Assembly: GCA_003216465.1 (NCBI GenBank)
Contig: QCIU01000002.1
Span: 62,001 to 126,000, forward strand
Direction of reading: 5' to 3'
Source of the DNA: Prochlorococcus sp. AG-402-N10
GTDB lineage: Bacteria; Cyanobacteriota; Cyanobacteriia; PCC-6307; Cyanobiaceae
DNA: 64,000 nucleotides
The translations under genes and the position numbers were made by a program. Below, in pieces: positions 26,398 to 35,461 of this stretch (its first letter is position 1; each line of letters begins with the position of its first letter). The notes under the pieces are model-generated. The model worked only from the letters and a program-made list of their open reading frames with translations. It ran no database searches and was not told the DNA's origin.

Positions 26398-26709
26398 ATG
26401 GCTACAGAAACAATGGGTATCGCTCTCGGCATGATCGAGACACGCGGACTTGTACCTGCAATCGAAGCAGCAGACGCAATGACCAAGGCAGCAGAAGTTC
26501 GTCTTATTGGTCGTGAATTCGTAGGTGGCGGTTATGTCACGGTTTTAGTTAGAGGAGAAACTGGTGCTGTTAACGCAGCAGTAAGAGCAGGAGCTGATGC
26601 TTGTGAAAGAGTTGGCGACGGTCTTGTTGCGGCTCACATCATTGCTCGTCCTCATAGAGAAGTTGAACCTGCTCTTGGTAACGGTGATTTCCTTGGTCAA
26701 AAGGACTAA
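26398..26709 (+). CDS. csoS1: Carboxysome shell hexamer protein CsoS1
   Basis: The 103-residue BMC-domain protein forms hexagonal facets of the alpha-carboxysome shell with a central pore for bicarbonate and RuBP. The sequence ALGMIETRGLVPAIEAADAMTKAAEV is the BMC hallmark, and EFVGGGYVTVLVRGETGAV follows with the pore-lining glycines. Codon use here (more GC-ending codons) differs from the surrounding genes, as expected of very highly expressed genes. It is the first gene of csoS1-rbcL-rbcS-csoS2. Confidence 0.98.
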   Translation: MATETMGIALGMIETRGLVPAIEAADAMTKAAEVRLIGREFVGGGYVTVLVRGETGAVNAAVRAGADACERVGDGLVAAHIIARPHREVEPALGNGDFLGQKD

Positions 26710-26779: not shown

Positions 26780-28195
26780 ATGAGTAAGAAGTATGACGCT
26801 GGGGTAAAGGAGTACAGAGATACCTACTGGACTCCTGAATATGTCCCCTTAGACACTGACTTATTAGCCTGTTTCAAATGTACAGGTCAAGAAGGTGTCC
26901 CTAGAGAAGAAGTTGCAGCAGCTGTTGCGGCTGAATCCTCAACAGGAACTTGGTCAACAGTTTGGTCCGAGCTTCTCACAGACCTTGAATTTTACAAGGG
27001 ACGTTGTTATCGAATAGAAGACGTTCCAGGAGATCCTGAGGCTTTTTATGCCTTTATTGCTTATCCTCTTGATCTTTTCGAAGAAGGTTCAATTACAAAT
27101 GTATTGACATCTTTAGTAGGTAATGTTTTTGGATTTAAAGCTCTAAGACATCTACGTCTTGAGGATATTAGATTCCCAATAGCTTTCATTAAGACCTGCG
27201 GTGGACCACCTAACGGAATAGTTGTCGAAAGAGATCGACTTAACAAGTATGGAAGACCTCTTCTTGGCTGTACTATTAAACCTAAATTGGGTTTATCCGG
27301 TAAGAACTACGGAAGGGTTGTATACGAATGTCTTAGAGGGGGTCTTGACCTAACTAAAGATGATGAGAATATCAATTCTCAGCCATTCCAACGTTGGAGA
27401 GAAAGATTCGAGTTTGTTGCTGAAGCAGTTAAACTTGCTCAGCAAGAAACTGGAGAAGTAAAGGGGCACTACTTGAATTGCACAGCTAATACCCCTGAAG
27501 AACTATATGAGCGTGCAGAATTTGCTAAAGAGCTCGATATGCCAATCATCATGCATGATTACATAACGGGAGGATTTACAGCAAATACTGGATTAGCCAA
27601 CTGGTGTCGTAAAAATGGCATGCTTCTGCATATACACAGAGCTATGCATGCTGTTATTGATAGACATCCAAAACACGGTATCCATTTCAGAGTTCTAGCA
27701 AAATGTTTGAGACTCTCTGGTGGAGATCAATTACACACTGGAACTGTTGTTGGGAAACTTGAAGGTGATCGTCAAACGACTCTTGGTTATATTGATAACT
27801 TGAGAGAATCATTTGTTCCTGAAGATAGATCAAGAGGTAACTTCTTTGATCAGGATTGGGGTTCAATGCCTGGAGTTTTTGCTGTTGCATCTGGTGGTAT
27901 CCACGTTTGGCACATGCCAGCACTGCTTGCAATATTTGGAGATGATTCTTGTCTTCAATTTGGTGGAGGAACTCATGGTCATCCATGGGGTTCAGCTGCG
28001 GGAGCCGCTGCAAACCGTGTTGCATTAGAAGCTTGTGTTAAGGCACGTAATGCCGGTCGCGAAATCGAAAAAGAGAGTAGGGACATTCTAATGGAGGCTG
28101 CTAAGCATAGCCCTGAATTAGCTATCGCACTTGAAACTTGGAAAGAAATCAAGTTTGAGTTTGATACCGTTGATAAGCTCGACGTTCAAGGCTAA
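26780..28195 (+). CDS. rbcL: Ribulose-bisphosphate carboxylase large subunit, form IA
   Basis: The 471-residue catalytic subunit fixes CO2 onto RuBP inside the carboxysome. [22 protein letters not shown] carries the catalytic Lys, [17 protein letters not shown] carries the carbamylated Lys and Mg ligands, and the [10 protein letters not shown] segment is in the phosphate-binding region. Form IA and its genes nested in a cso operon are the standard picocyanobacterial arrangement. It lies 70 bases after csoS1 and 88 bases before rbcS. Confidence 0.99.
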
Positions 28196-28241: not shown

Positions 28242-28283
28242 AAACCTCGTTTTACGAGATTATCATTCACAAATCATTTAATT

Positions 28284-28625
28284 ATGCCTTTCCAGAGCAC
28301 AGTTGGTGACTACCAAACAGTTGCCACCCTGGAAACATTCGGTTTTTTACCACCGATGACCCAGGAAGAAATATACGATCAAATTGCCTACATTATTGCT
28401 CAAGGATGGAGTCCTGTTATTGAGCATGTACATCCAACTGGAAGTATGCAATCCTATTGGTCTTATTGGAAGCTCCCTTTCTTTGGGGAAAAAGATCTTA
28501 ACTTGATTGTTAGTGAATTAGAGGCATGCCATAGAGCATACCCTGATCATCATGTAAGAATTATTGGTTACGATGCTTACACACAAAGTCAAGGTACAGC
28601 TTTTGTAGTTTTCCAAGGGCGCTAA
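28284..28625 (+). CDS. rbcS: Ribulose-bisphosphate carboxylase small subunit
   Basis: The 113-residue subunit caps the L8S8 holoenzyme. The start is ATG 28284 (MPFQSTVGDYQTVATLETFGFLP); a longer frame begins inside rbcL. The segments FLPPMTQEEIYDQIAYI, YWSYWKLPFFGE, VRIIGYD and VVFQGR are typical of RbcS. It lies 88 bases after rbcL and 88 bases before csoS2. Confidence 0.99.
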   Translation: MPFQSTVGDYQTVATLETFGFLPPMTQEEIYDQIAYIIAQGWSPVIEHVHPTGSMQSYWSYWKLPFFGEKDLNLIVSELEACHRAYPDHHVRIIGYDAYTQSQGTAFVVFQGR

Positions 28626-28713: not shown

Positions 28714-30988
28714 ATGTCAACAAAAACCAGTAGAGAGATTGCTTTAGATAGAAGAAAAGCCATGAGTGATGGTGGTAAAAAAGCTGCAATAAATTCTTCT
28801 TCAACTCAAGACAGAGTCAGATCATCTCAAGATATAAAAACTTTAGCAACAAAGTCTTCTGGTACAGGAAATATGACTAAATCAAGTAAAAAAGACATAC
28901 CTGTTAGCTCCGCCTCTTCAAAATTATCGAGTAAAGAGTTAGTTATTGAGAGAAGAAAAGCAATGTCAACTCATGGAAAATCTGCCATCAATTCCTCTGA
29001 TAGGACTCGCACTGAAATTAATAAATCATCAAAAGTAATCCCAGTTAAAGCAAATACAAATTCAGATATTTCTGAGAAAAAAGATATCGAAAGCATAGAA
29101 AATCATAAAGTTCAGAAAAATATAAAGAGGAGAGTAAGTCAAAAAAGAAAACCAATTACAAATACAAGTAGGGATATTGTTTTAGCGCGAAGAGAAGCAC
29201 AATCTAAACATGGAAAATCTGCTTCTAAACAAAATAATAGTGCTGCTTCTTTAGCGAGAAGAGGAGATCCAGATTTGTCTAGTAGAGAAATTTCTCAGAG
29301 AGTAAGAGAACTTAGAAGTAAAACTGGAGATAAATCTAAAAAGTCAAACAGTAAATGTAGACCATGTGGCCCTAATAAACATGGATCTAAAATGAATATT
29401 GCAGATGCAAGTTGGAAAGTTGGTAAAAGTGAAACTAATTCAGGACAAGTAGTTACAGGAACACAAGCCAACAGATCTCTAAAAAACTACAGGTAATGAA
29501 GCAAGTACATGTAGAAGTGTTACTGGGACACAATACTTAGGTGCAGAGATCACCAACGAATTCTGTAAAAACAAACCTGAATACAAGCAACCTGTTAGGG
29601 CTTCTGTTACATCAACATCTTCTGGTAATAAAGTTACGGGTAATGAGGTTGGTAGATCTGAAAAGGTTACTGGAGATGAGCCAGGAACTTGCAAAAATGT
29701 AACTGGTACGGAATATACTTCTGCAAATCAATCGAGTAAATATTGTGGAGAAGTTCCAAAAAATCCATCTAAGGTTAAACAAAGTAATACTACTGATGGA
29801 TTAAAAGTTTCCGGTTCCTTACCGGGTAGATCATCATTAGTTACTGGCGATGAGGCTGGATCAGGACATCAATTAACTGGTGATCAATATCTTGGTTCAG
29901 AACCCAATCCTAAAGGGAGATCTACTGAGAAAGTTGGCGAATATAACACATTAAATGGTAACGCTTTAACTGGTACTGGAGTTGGCAGATCTGAATTTGT
30001 TACTGGGAATGAACCTGGAAGTTGTAAAAATGTTACTGGGGATGAATATATTGGTTCACAACAGTACGAGACTTTTTGTAAATCTAAACCTAAAGCCGAA
30101 GCTAGAAAAGTTGGAGTAAGTCTCTCAAATAATGCTAATGAGATAAGTGGTACTCAAACAGGAAGGTCTAATCAAGTTACTGGAGATGAACCGGGAACAT
30201 GCAAAAATGTAACTGGTACTCCTTATGCAGGCTTAGAACAAGTAGAGGATAATTGTGATTCTAATTTGGTTAATGAAATCAAAGGTAAAGGCAAGGTTTA
30301 TTTAGGTAGTAGTTCAAATGCACGTCTTACTGGAATACAACCAGGTATTGGAGGGCAAATGACTGGAGCAGCCAAAGGTGCTTGCTTAAATCCAACTGGT
30401 ACTCCTTATGTAGGAGGAGATCAATTAGGTGATAATTGCTCAAATCATTCTTTTGAAAATGATTACGCTAATAGTGAAAGGAAAAATTTAAAAACATGGG
30501 AAGATTTTTCTGTAAATTCTCCTTCAAGAGATAGATACTCAGATAAAAAAAGAGAGGGAGTTACTGGTAATGAATATGAGAATGGTTCCAAAATTACTGG
30601 TCCTTTTGATATGGCTATAGATAAAGTAACTGGAACAGAACAATTCAGGTTTGATAAAAACAAAAATCAACTTTTAAATACCAAAAAAGATACAAAAGAT
30701 TTTGATCCTACAAAGGAGAGAGCACAATCTAGAATTACAGGTGAAGGTCAATCTGCTGGGTTAAAGATAACAGGAGATGATTGGGATAGGGGAGATAGGG
30801 TAACAGGTACTGAAGGAGCTTCTGCAAGAAAAAGAAACCCTACGAGACCAGGAATGACAAGCGCAATGCCGGTAATGGATATCAAAAGAAATGAAGAAAT
30901 GAAAGAGCCTGATTTTCTTATCACTGGATCTAGTGGGAATACTCGAGATGGTCAACTTGTAACTTTCTCGGGCGGTGCAAGAGGTTAA
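28714..30988 (+). CDS. csoS2: Carboxysome scaffold protein CsoS2, interrupted by a frameshift
   Basis: CsoS2 is the intrinsically disordered scaffold that binds Rubisco and CsoS1 during alpha-carboxysome assembly. Start is ATG 28714 (MSTKTSREIALDRRKAM). Four Rubisco-binding N-repeats of the SREIALxRRKAxS type lie near residues 6-21, 73-90, 152-170 and 192-205. M-repeats with paired VTG motifs and Cys pairs run from 29452. A C-terminal region ends LVTFSGGARG. The frame stops at 29494-29496 after a six-A run at 29481-29486; the remainder continues in the +1 frame without a stop to 30988. Dropping one A gives 757 residues. See the finding. Confidence 0.92.
29452..30443 (+). repeat. CsoS2 middle-region repeats
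   Basis: Six degenerate units of the type VTGTxxGRS...VTGDEPGTCKNVTGTEY span this range. Cys residues occur in each except the third (LVTGDEAGSGHQLTGD), which lacks both the CKN-type and the later Cys. These are M-repeats that bind shell proteins. Units are about 45-70 residues each. Confidence 0.75.
29481..29496 (+). other. Frameshift site in csoS2 (six A run)
   Basis: The run AAAAAA (29481-29486) followed by CTACAGG and TAA at 29494. In the incoming frame the codons are CTA AAA AAC TAC AGG TAA. In the frame that continues csoS2, ACT ACA GGT AAT begins at 29486. The heptamer A AAA AAC is in register for a -1 slip, but -1 leads to another stop within 20 codons; only +1 continues the protein. 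Confidence 0.85.
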
Positions 30989-30995
30989 TAAGTAA

Positions 30996-32525
30996 ATGCC
31001 TTTAAGGGGACTGGCTAAACGGAAGAATTATACATTGGGGCCTACGGCTCCGATGAAAACTTTCACAGAAAATATTCATAAACAATCTAATGATTTTAAT
31101 AATCAAATAAATTCTCATAAAACTCATAATTGGACAAACGTTTATCAGAATGAAAAACTCTATCAATATGAAAGTCAGATAAAAAGAAATTTTGATAACA
31201 TCGTCCCAACCTTAAAAGAAATCGCAAGTATACAACATCAAGATAATTTTATTGATACAGCTCAAAGCATTGCAAAAAATAATTTAGGGATAGAATTGCC
31301 GCTTCATATATTAGATAAATCTTGGGTTAAACCATTGGATATGAGAGCTTTATATGCTTGGTGCTCTTTTAAACAACATGAAAAATTAAGTGATGATTTT
31401 TTTGAAAATGATCCTTTAGATGGAGCGACTGGAGGTAGCAATGCAAAAGAGTTTGAAGATTTTATGTTGGATTGTGGCATACATTTGCTAGACATCACGC
31501 CCTGCTCTGATGGAAGATTAGCTCATTCAGTTGCCTATGTTATGAGAATTCCATTTAGTGCTGTTAGAAGAAGGTCTCATGCAGGAGCACTTTTTGATAT
31601 TGAAAATACTGTTAATAGATGGGTGAAAACTGAACATAGTAGATATAGAGAGAACACTCCTAATGAGGCTCTTAAAGATACAAGATATCTGAAGGTTGTA
31701 ACTTATCATTTTAGTTCTGTTGATCCTCTTCATCAGGGATGTGCCGCTCATGGTAGTAATGATGAATTAGCCGCAAAAGAAGGGAGCAAGAAATTACTTG
31801 CTTTTAGGGAGGCTGTTGAAAATAGTTTTTGTTGCGGTGCTTCAGTAGATCTTATGTTAATAGGCCTTGATACTGATACAGACTCATTAAAGATTCATTT
31901 GTCTACAAGCGAAGGTAATATAGATTTAGAAAAAACCATTTCAACTTTAGAAATATATAATTCAACAATAAATTTTTCAAAAGAAGAAGCTGAAAAAGAA
32001 ATCTGTCAAATTATCGATAGAAAATCTTCCAGGGATCAGCTAACAGGAATTAATAAATTTATTTTTAAATTAATAGTTAATAATATTTCTCAAATTGACT
32101 ATGTAAAAGAATTTCATACAGGTGCTTATGAGGATATTGGTCATGCTGAGAGATTTATTGGAGTTGGGATAGGTTTCAAAGAAGTACATCTAAGAAATTT
32201 AACTTATTTTGCACATTTAGATACTGTTGAAGAGGGAGCTCCAGATTTGGATGTTGGAGTTAAGATTTTTAAAGGATTAAATGTCTCAAATGATCTCCCT
32301 ATACCAGTAGTAATAAGATTTGATTACTCTGGCAAAGTTCCAGGGGCGAAAGAAAGGGCAATAAAAGATTGTGAGAGAGTAAATAATGCGATATCAATTA
32401 GATATAAAAATTTAGTTGATCAAGGTTTGTTGCATACTTGTCTTACTATTAGGGATAGGGACAACATACATTCCGCTCATATTATTGGAATGTCTTTTGA
32501 TAAAAAATTAGAGGAGGCTCACTAA
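30996..32525 (+). CDS. csoSCA: Carboxysomal carbonic anhydrase CsoSCA (CsoS3)
   Basis: CsoSCA dehydrates bicarbonate to CO2 inside the carboxysome. The 509-residue protein has the beta-CA-like zinc site with C170 and D172/R174 in CSDGR, H238 in VVTYHFSS and C249 in HQGCAAHGSND. An N-terminal region (about 1-100) is low in sequence similarity and probably recruits the enzyme to Rubisco. It starts 8 bases after the csoS2 stop and 2 bases lie between its stop and csoS4A, so it is in the same operon. Confidence 0.97.
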   Translation: MPLRGLAKRKNYTLGPTAPMKTFTENIHKQSNDFNNQINSHKTHNWTNVYQNEKLYQYESQIKRNFDNIVPTLKEIASIQHQDNFIDTAQSIAKNNLGIELPLHILDKSWVKPLDMRALYAWCSFKQHEKLSDDFFENDPLDGATGGSNAKEFEDFMLDCGIHLLDITPCSDGRLAHSVAYVMRIPFSAVRRRSHAGALFDIENTVNRWVKTEHSRYRENTPNEALKDTRYLKVVTYHFSSVDPLHQGCAAHGSNDELAAKEGSKKLLAFREAVENSFCCGASVDLMLIGLDTDTDSLKIHLSTSEGNIDLEKTISTLEIYNSTINFSKEEAEKEICQIIDRKSSRDQLTGINKFIFKLIVNNISQIDYVKEFHTGAYEDIGHAERFIGVGIGFKEVHLRNLTYFAHLDTVEEGAPDLDVGVKIFKGLNVSNDLPIPVVIRFDYSGKVPGAKERAIKDCERVNNAISIRYKNLVDQGLLHTCLTIRDRDNIHSAHIIGMSFDKKLEEAH

Positions 32526-32527
32526 TT

Positions 32528-32782
32528 ATGCTTATTTGTAAGGTAGTTAAACCACTTGTATCAACCAATAGAATTCCTGGATTTGAACATAGACATTTAC
32601 AAGTAGTTTTAGATGGTTCATCACAAAAAGTCGCAGTTGACTCTGTTGGTTGTAAACCAGGAGATTGGGTCATTTGTGTGGGCAGTTCTGCTGCTAGAGA
32701 GGCTGCAGGCAGCAAATCATATCCAAGTGATTTAACAATTGTTGGAATTATTGATCACTGGGATCCCGAAAATGAGACTTAA
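32528..32782 (+). CDS. csoS4A: Carboxysome vertex pentamer protein CsoS4A
   Basis: The 84-residue protein is a CsoS4/EutN/CcmL-type pentamer, forming the vertices of the shell. MLICKVVKPLVSTNRIPGFEHRHLQVV and the SVGCKPGDWVICVGSSAAREAAGS segment are characteristic. It follows csoSCA after 2 bases and precedes csoS4B. Confidence 0.96.
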   Translation: MLICKVVKPLVSTNRIPGFEHRHLQVVLDGSSQKVAVDSVGCKPGDWVICVGSSAAREAAGSKSYPSDLTIVGIIDHWDPENET

Positions 32783-32800: not shown

Positions 32801-33049
32801 TTGGAAATAATGAAGGTTTGTGGAAGAATGGTATGTACTCAAAGAGTAGCAGGCTTGGGACATATGAATTTGAGGATTTTAGAAAATAATAAAGGTAAAA
32901 AAGTTGTTGCAGTTGATCCTGTTGGTGCTAGAGAGGGTAACTGGGTTTTTACTGCTAGTGGCTCAGCAGCAAGATTTGCTTGCCCTAATCCAGAAGTGCA
33001 AACTGATTTAACTATTGGCGGAATTATTGATTATTGGGAATCTAATTAA
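32801..33049 (+). CDS. csoS4B: Carboxysome vertex pentamer protein CsoS4B
   Basis: A second pentameric vertex protein of 82 residues. MKVCGRMVCTQRVAGLGHMNLRIL and PVGAREGNWVFTASGSAARFA match CsoS4A and EutN-type proteins. GGAGGG (32785-32790) lies 10 bases before TTG 32801, which supports that start; the ATG at 32810 is the alternative. Paired vertex genes are normal in cso operons. Confidence 0.95.
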   Translation: MEIMKVCGRMVCTQRVAGLGHMNLRILENNKGKKVVAVDPVGAREGNWVFTASGSAARFACPNPEVQTDLTIGGIIDYWESN

Positions 33050-34031: not shown

Positions 34032-34772
34032 TTAAACCCATGAATCTTTATTTGCTCTTAAATAAGAAAATCTTTTTAAATTATCTGCTCTCAAAAACAG
34101 ATTAATTTTCAACTCTTCTTTAAGTAGAAATGGAATTGTAAGTTCTTTTAAAGCAATTTTCTTTTTAACTTCAATGAGTTTCTTTTTTAAAGTTTGATTT
34201 TCTGGTTCAATATCTAATGCCCACAAAAGATTTGACTTCGTATATTCATGCGCACAGTAAATAAGAGTGTTTTTTGGTAAAGACTTGATTTTTTTTAGAG
34301 AATTATACATTTGTTTATAAGTGCCTTCAAAGACTCGCCCACATCCAGCCGAAAACAAAGTATCACCAACAAAGAGAACAGGAGTTTCATTATTAAAATA
34401 AAAAGCTAGATGTGATCTTGTATGTCCTATTACTTCAATTACTTCAACTTCTTCATCTAATAGTTTTAACTTGTCTCCGTGCTTAACAGATAAATTTTGA
34501 AAAGGAATACGGTCTTTTTCTTTCGCTGAGGCTATGACTTTAACATTTGGCCATTCATGAATAAGCTCTTTAGTTCCCCCAATATGATCTGAGTGATGAT
34601 GTGTTTGTAAAATAGCCTCTAATTTAAGGTCATTAGCTTTCAGGTATTCTTTTACGGGTTGAGATAGGGCAGGATCAATTACTACTACATATTTATCATT
34701 TTTCCATAGCCAAATTACATTATCACTTAAAACTCTAAGCCCGATTATTTGTTGCTCTTTATTAAATTCCAT
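34032..34772 (-). CDS. gloB: Hydroxyacylglutathione hydrolase (glyoxalase II)
   Basis: The metallo-beta-lactamase-fold enzyme hydrolyses S-lactoylglutathione to lactate and glutathione. The metal-binding segment [12 protein letters not shown] (THxHxDH) is near residue 55 and HTRSHLAFY supplies a further His near 116, with [17 protein letters not shown] and CAHEYT later. The 246-residue length is typical. It is divergent from hisG with a 41-base gap. Confidence 0.94.
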
Positions 34773-34813: not shown

Positions 34814-35461
34814 ATGATTACTATAGCTTTACCTAAAGGAGCTCTGTTAAAAGATTCAATTTCAATTTTTAAAAAGGCAGGATTGAACTTCTCTGATGCA
34901 TTGTTAGAAAACAATAGATCATTAACAATTGATTCAAAATGTAAACGAGCCAAAGCCTTATTAGTAAGGAATGGAGATGTTCCAGTCTATGTAAGTTATG
35001 GACAAGCTGATTTAGGAATTGTAGGATATGACGTTTTGCAGGAATCTGAATTACAAGTAGCTAAATTGCTTGATTTAGAGTTTGGAGGATGTCATATGTC
35101 ACTTGCGGTCAAGAATTCTAGTAATTATTTAAAACCTACTGATCTGCCAGCTAATTGTAAAGTGGCAAGTAAATTCACAAAAACTGCTAGAGCTTATTTC
35201 GATGACTTAAATATACCAGTTGAGATTGTACATTTGACGGGTTCAGTTGAGCTTGGTCCTATCACTGGAATGGCCGAAGCCATAGTTGATCTGGTGGCGA
35301 CTGGTAAGACTCTTAGAGAAAACGGTTTAAGTAAAATTGACGATCTTTTTTATTCAACTGCAAGATTAATTGCCAATCCTCTTTCTATTAGATTAGATAG
35401 CAATCCTCTCCGAGATGTGATTTTATCAATAGAATCTCAAAAAGGAATACAACATACTTAA
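34814..35461 (+). CDS. hisG: ATP phosphoribosyltransferase, short form
   Basis: HisG commits PRPP and ATP to histidine synthesis. The 215-residue length is the short form, which lacks the C-terminal regulatory domain and usually needs His[24 protein letters not shown] at the start, [10 protein letters not shown] near residue 70 and [23 protein letters not shown] near residue 155 are the signature. hisZ is not in the window. It lies 4 bases before the ABC transporter gene. Confidence 0.96.

Follow-up and report, generated by a model that had tools for sequence, protein, structure and literature searches.

A private one-base frame break at an A run in csoS2 of a Prochlorococcus genome, probably an artefact of amplification, sequencing or assembly

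CsoS2 is an essential factor in the assembly of alpha-carboxysomes according to the available portions of two reports (PMC10484944, PMC11365436). In Prochlorococcus the protein is said to be produced in its full-length form only, according to excerpts of PMC11481516 and PMC12918739, and the former also mentions two CsoS2 forms, attributed to one study. The csoS2 gene of Halothiobacillus is subject to -1 frameshifting (PMC5009743, in the part available), and transcriptional slippage at a run of 11 A has been described for tssM (PMC4256274, likewise in part).

The csoS2 gene characterized here lies in a stretch of 64,000 nucleotides (the window), which corresponds to bases 62001-126000 of contig C2 of a 1.56 Mb genome assembled in 35 contigs, with 97.6% completeness. 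Ten named relatives identify this genome as Prochlorococcus, and its source is probably a single cell, as suggested by contigs sorted by length and by the genomes nearest to it. The cso operon of the window displays the order csoS1, cbbL, cbbS, csoS2, csoSCA and two pentamer genes; according to Pfam, the neighbours of csoS2 are intact, and the csoS2 region itself is divided in two parts:

26398..26709, + strand: BMC shell hexamer, presumably csoS1, intact (Pfam PF00936)
26780..28195, + strand: Rubisco large subunit (cbbL), intact (Pfam PF00016, PF02788)
28281..28625, + strand: Rubisco small subunit (cbbS), intact (Pfam PF00101)
28714..29496, + strand: 5' part of csoS2, 260 codons followed by TAA at 29494-29496 (translation and Pfam CsoS2_M)
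29481..29486, + strand: six-A run, meeting point of both frames (sequence and orthologue comparison)
29486..30988, + strand: 3' part of csoS2, 500 codons open in the other frame (translation and Pfam CsoS2_M)
30996..32525, + strand: carboxysomal carbonic anhydrase CsoSCA, intact (Pfam PF20686, PF20687, PF08936)
32528..32782, + strand: shell pentamer, presumably csoS4A, intact (Pfam PF03319)
32801..33049, + strand: shell pentamer, presumably csoS4B, intact (Pfam PF03319)

An initial annotation, made from the letters alone, had proposed that csoS2 is split by one base at a six-A run located at 29481-29486, and the run was found at that place. Translation reproduced the frame structure that it described: positions 28714-29493 encode 260 residues with the C-terminus RSLKNYR before the stop codon at 29494-29496, and positions 29486-30985 encode 500 residues starting with TTGNEAST, the first stop being the TAA at 30986-30988. 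The earliest ATG, GTG or TTG codon of the 3' frame is the TTG at 30266, as had been stated, and an internal restart of the 3' part was discarded, as none of these codons occurs in frame upstream of that position. By arithmetic, both pieces minus one base sum to 757 codons, in agreement with the length anticipated for a restored product.

The attribution of the continuation to the CsoS2 M-repeats was sustained by the Pfam profile CsoS2_M (PF12288), which matched residues 152-257 of the 5' piece at profile positions 2-108 (E 1.9e-44) and residues 1-318 of the 3' piece at positions 109-425 (E 5.3e-141), so that the break falls at position 108-109 of 425. Since the pieces match adjacent stretches of the profile, they are more than a chance pair of open reading frames; in alignments, both are colinear with intact orthologues, with the six-A run as the single junction. 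From our reading of the repeat pattern, the 5' piece would extend from the N-terminal region that binds Rubisco into the beginning of the first M-repeat, and the 3' piece would comprise the remaining M-repeats and the C-terminal region, with the break inside the first M-repeat. The locus thus carries the CsoS2_M domain and occupies the place of csoS2 in the cso operon; its reading frame is not continuous, being closed by the stop at 29494-29496 and continued in another frame. Three CsoS2_M matches were found across the assembly, all within one csoS2 gene, and a second csoS2 copy replacing the broken one was consequently rejected for this 97.6% complete assembly. A copy with a shorter A run elsewhere was likewise discarded, as the pattern with five or six A matches only this genomic site, and virus contigs gave zero matches to the site with either number.

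The same region was compared across the genus by a profile search for CsoS2_M in a draw of 200 genomes, including the genome of the window. The domain was present in 155 of them, and in 143 of these (as counted from the search listing) the whole CsoS2_M, profile positions 2-425, lies in one open frame. The remaining 12 correspond to nine genes cut short by a contig end, which lies directly at the point where they stop or no more than about 80 nt away (G008, G093, G014, G174, G020, G178, G071, G134 and G115), two genes running into a misjoin (G017 and G168), and the genome of the window, the only one among the 155 displaying a frame break within a contig. Further, six A in this context were found in 1 of 266 genus genomes, that of the window, with a pattern formed by the T before the run and the local context, which would miss variants with changed flanks, and in a set that includes genomes without an assembled csoS2 (208 of the 266 were matched when 1 kb of csoS2 served as DNA query). 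Ninety-one of 228 sequences span the site; 7 of them come from the window or the genome to which it belongs, and the 84 from relatives, which amount to 34 distinct sequences with some loci from the same genome, are all uninterrupted. The A run of the 34 distinct sequences has five A in 29, four in 3 and six in 2, the last two having a CAA codon and one base fewer before the run, which keeps them in frame. In the complete relative G208 (locus L172), a 26-base core is identical save for the extra A. The nearest named relative found, AG-679-P15, displays 93% identity to the 5' piece and 96% to the 3' piece. As the runs of the relatives are mostly of five and always in frame, the window carries one base too many, the simplest account being a five-A run that gained an A. 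The sequence therefore contains a break of a single base, which none of the other genomes searched shares.

Based on these findings, we consider it probable that the extra A is an artefact, because the six-A form is private to one genome and its flanks are conserved; a private one-base homopolymer indel between conserved flanks is the form that a singleton error takes. One base would have been inserted in the A run during genome amplification, sequencing or assembly, and we infer that it is missing from the cell itself, which most likely carries an ordinary unbroken csoS2 and would produce one full-length CsoS2, as is thought for its relatives. Selection on the two halves also argues for an artefact, as purifying selection on both is expected of a working gene. 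In comparison with AG-679-P15, the 5' piece has a dN/dS of 0.135 and, on the branch of the window, 15 synonymous against 3 nonsynonymous codon changes; for the 3' piece the values are 0.109 and 23 against 6, which brings the changes in both pieces to 38 against 9. Both halves are thus under ordinary purifying selection, the 3' half showing no decay so far, and an old pseudogene or old null was rejected on these grounds. If the break is real, it must therefore have arisen very recently or be bypassed; the undecayed 3' half is compatible with either, and also with an artefact. The initial annotation had considered a plain null unlikely given that CsoS2 is essential, an argument that favors an artefact no less than it favors recoding.

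A real and very recent frameshift, private to this cell or strain, is a less probable explanation. In its favor, a one-base gain in an A run is a common type of mutation and the event may be too recent for the 3' half to show traces. Past the CTA codon that contains the break, translation would then read four more sense codons and end, leaving a product made of the Rubisco-binding part and half of the first M-repeat. The assembly of carboxysomes would be impaired, although slipping at the A run might provide some leakage at a low level. The essential role ascribed to CsoS2 (PMC10484944, PMC11365436, as cited above in part) weighs against such a mutation, as do the single copy of csoS2 in this assembly and the lack of any within-contig frame break in the other genomes of the 155 with CsoS2_M.

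The quality of the assembly bears on both explanations. From 1.2 Mb of the complete G208, 1063 open reading frames with 100 codons or more were scanned against 1.18 Mb of this genome; 705 of them gave good matches, and csoS2 was the only one split, in a scan that recovered 78 of 100 planted one-base insertions and may thus miss about a fifth. In the reverse comparison, 699 of 1055 gave good matches and none was split. In the 699 compared genes, A runs of exactly six number 1239 and longer ones 876; with only one split against 1239 six-A runs, homopolymers are not a general problem here. A generally poor assembly was rejected on this basis, as the part scanned is of good quality and shows one isolated event; the lack of any other such break speaks for a real frameshift. 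An apparent second split near 34.8 kb, seen against 3 of 6 relatives' loci, was discarded: judged by position only, it appears to reflect a stop-to-stop frame of the relatives running antisense into the gene at 34814, which we take to be hisG, and the site lies upstream of the start of the frame at 34032-34772. For a Prochlorococcus single-cell workflow, 3.0 indels per 100 kb have been reported as a benchmark, and AG-679 and AG-418 are among the plates in its sample table (PMC6122165, in the part available). This figure would allow one break in 1.18 Mb and in that sense favors an artefact; the observed rate is far below it, although the benchmark workflow may not be that of this genome. The otherwise clean assembly, with a rate far better than the benchmark, counts against an artefact, and so does the infrequency of such splits in relatives, with none in 153 gene-locus pairs (173 kb, from nine single-cell or metagenome records and one isolate), a control too small to set a rate.

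The positions at which csoS2 is interrupted in related assemblies were also located. In window-equivalent coordinates, contig ends or misjoins of the fetched loci fall at 29425 (two genomes), 29455, 29471, 29488 and 29504, and 11 others lie between 28856 and 30557; positions are the ends of blastn alignments, that of G168 at 30310 being approximate. Six of the 17 located breaks are therefore within 80 nt, 29425-29504 (simulation p 0.003 under uniform placement), for an interval picked post hoc and on fetched loci rather than a census, with some genomes giving two breaks. Because breaks and misjoins of the relatives' csoS2 gather near the site, this clustering suggests, without proof, that an amplification or assembly fault at this place is more believable, and it adds to the case for an artefact. 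The cluster surrounds the first M-repeat and comprises loci L045, L044, L046, L218, L048 and L039, from six genomes. In L048 (G017:C30), csoS2 is joined at about position 1239 to an inverted stretch resembling nusA, an assignment that we presume from its translation, and the contig is probably an amplification or assembly chimera; what looked like a recurrence of the frame break in G017 was discarded on account of this join. In L214 (G168:C34), csoS2 is joined at 1630-1721 to an inverted stretch equivalent to the window from 33568 onward, also a probable amplification chimera, and such chimeras are known from multiple displacement amplification. Separately, csoSCA lies in short open frames of 132-168 aa in G159, G059, G049 and G007, perhaps at contig ends, and none of these four is among the genomes listed with a CsoS2_M match.

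Functional recoding, by which some full-length CsoS2 would be made beside a short N-terminal form, appears highly unlikely. Two routes can be envisaged: a +1 ribosomal slip, with tRNA-Lys moving from AAA to the overlapping AAA, or RNA polymerase slippage losing one A. The former would re-pair perfectly (AAA 29482-29484 to AAA 29483-29485), and judging from these codons some +1 leakage at the A run is possible; both csoS2 halves are conserved, and the Halothiobacillus and tssM cases offer precedents. However, the privacy of the six A (1 of 266 genomes) and the single frame of all 84 spanning loci of the relatives, which is what the orthologue comparison suggested by the initial annotation returned, speak against recoding. 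The RNA downstream displays no unusual fold (z -0.10 for 80 nt and -0.86 for 130 nt, in pseudoknot-free folds), and the codon in the A site is AAC and not a stop. An in-frame A_AAA_AAC heptamer is present at the break, and heptamers of this kind serve -1 shifts; the -1 frame from 29487 stops at 29538-29540 after 17 codons, and -1 frameshifting was rejected since the CsoS2 continuation needs +1. In-frame copies of this heptamer number 70 in the 699 compared genes, a further point against recoding. As for the polymerase, the six A are fewer than the more than seven A of programmed transcriptional slippage (excerpt of PMC3711429); on runs shorter than eight A, a reporter detected no slippage by E. 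coli RNA polymerase, and none of the A runs examined gave a deletion with this enzyme, whereas three A sufficed for T7 polymerase to slip (PMC6260861, in part). These thresholds may not be those of the Prochlorococcus polymerase. The description of Prochlorococcus CsoS2 as full-length only (PMC11481516, PMC12918739) also counts against recoding. Literature searches on pseudogenes and ribosomal frameshifting returned no such break in Prochlorococcus csoS2 in the titles and abstract openings among the matches listed.

Taken together, a sequence error, or else a private mutation, is the most likely explanation, rather than new decoding. Of the three candidates of the initial annotation, an indel in the assembly and a real mutation remain, and recoding loses ground to the privacy of the six-A run. 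The consequences are mainly for annotation: simple gene callers would split csoS2 of this genome in two, and a survey of carboxysome loci might mistake it for a lost or recoded gene. If the six A were real in a growing strain, this would constitute a natural test of the amount of full-length CsoS2 required by a Prochlorococcus cell.

In relation to known systems, the window's csoS2 belongs to the same family and has the same repeats as the Prochlorococcus gene with its single full-length form, differing by the one extra base that breaks the frame in the first M-repeat. Halothiobacillus neapolitanus has the same gene, with the products CsoS2A and CsoS2B, and a shorter and a longer product are conceivable here. 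In that organism, however, the shift is -1, occurs in the sixth M-repeat and leaves the unshifted frame as the full-length one (available parts of PMC5009743 and PMC11481516), whereas here a +1 shift in the first M-repeat would be needed for the full-length form: the unshifted frame gives the short piece, and the site is not in a late M-repeat such as M6. A two-form csoS2 in Prochlorococcus, in which the six A would be real in the lineage and slipping would yield a short Rubisco-binding CsoS2 together with the full-length protein, is scarcely probable, and its shift would be opposite in sign to that of Halothiobacillus. In Citrobacter rodentium, tssM is likewise interrupted at an A run, one of 11 A to which an A is added (PMC4256274, in part), in contrast to the window, where the run has 6 A and an A would have to be lost.
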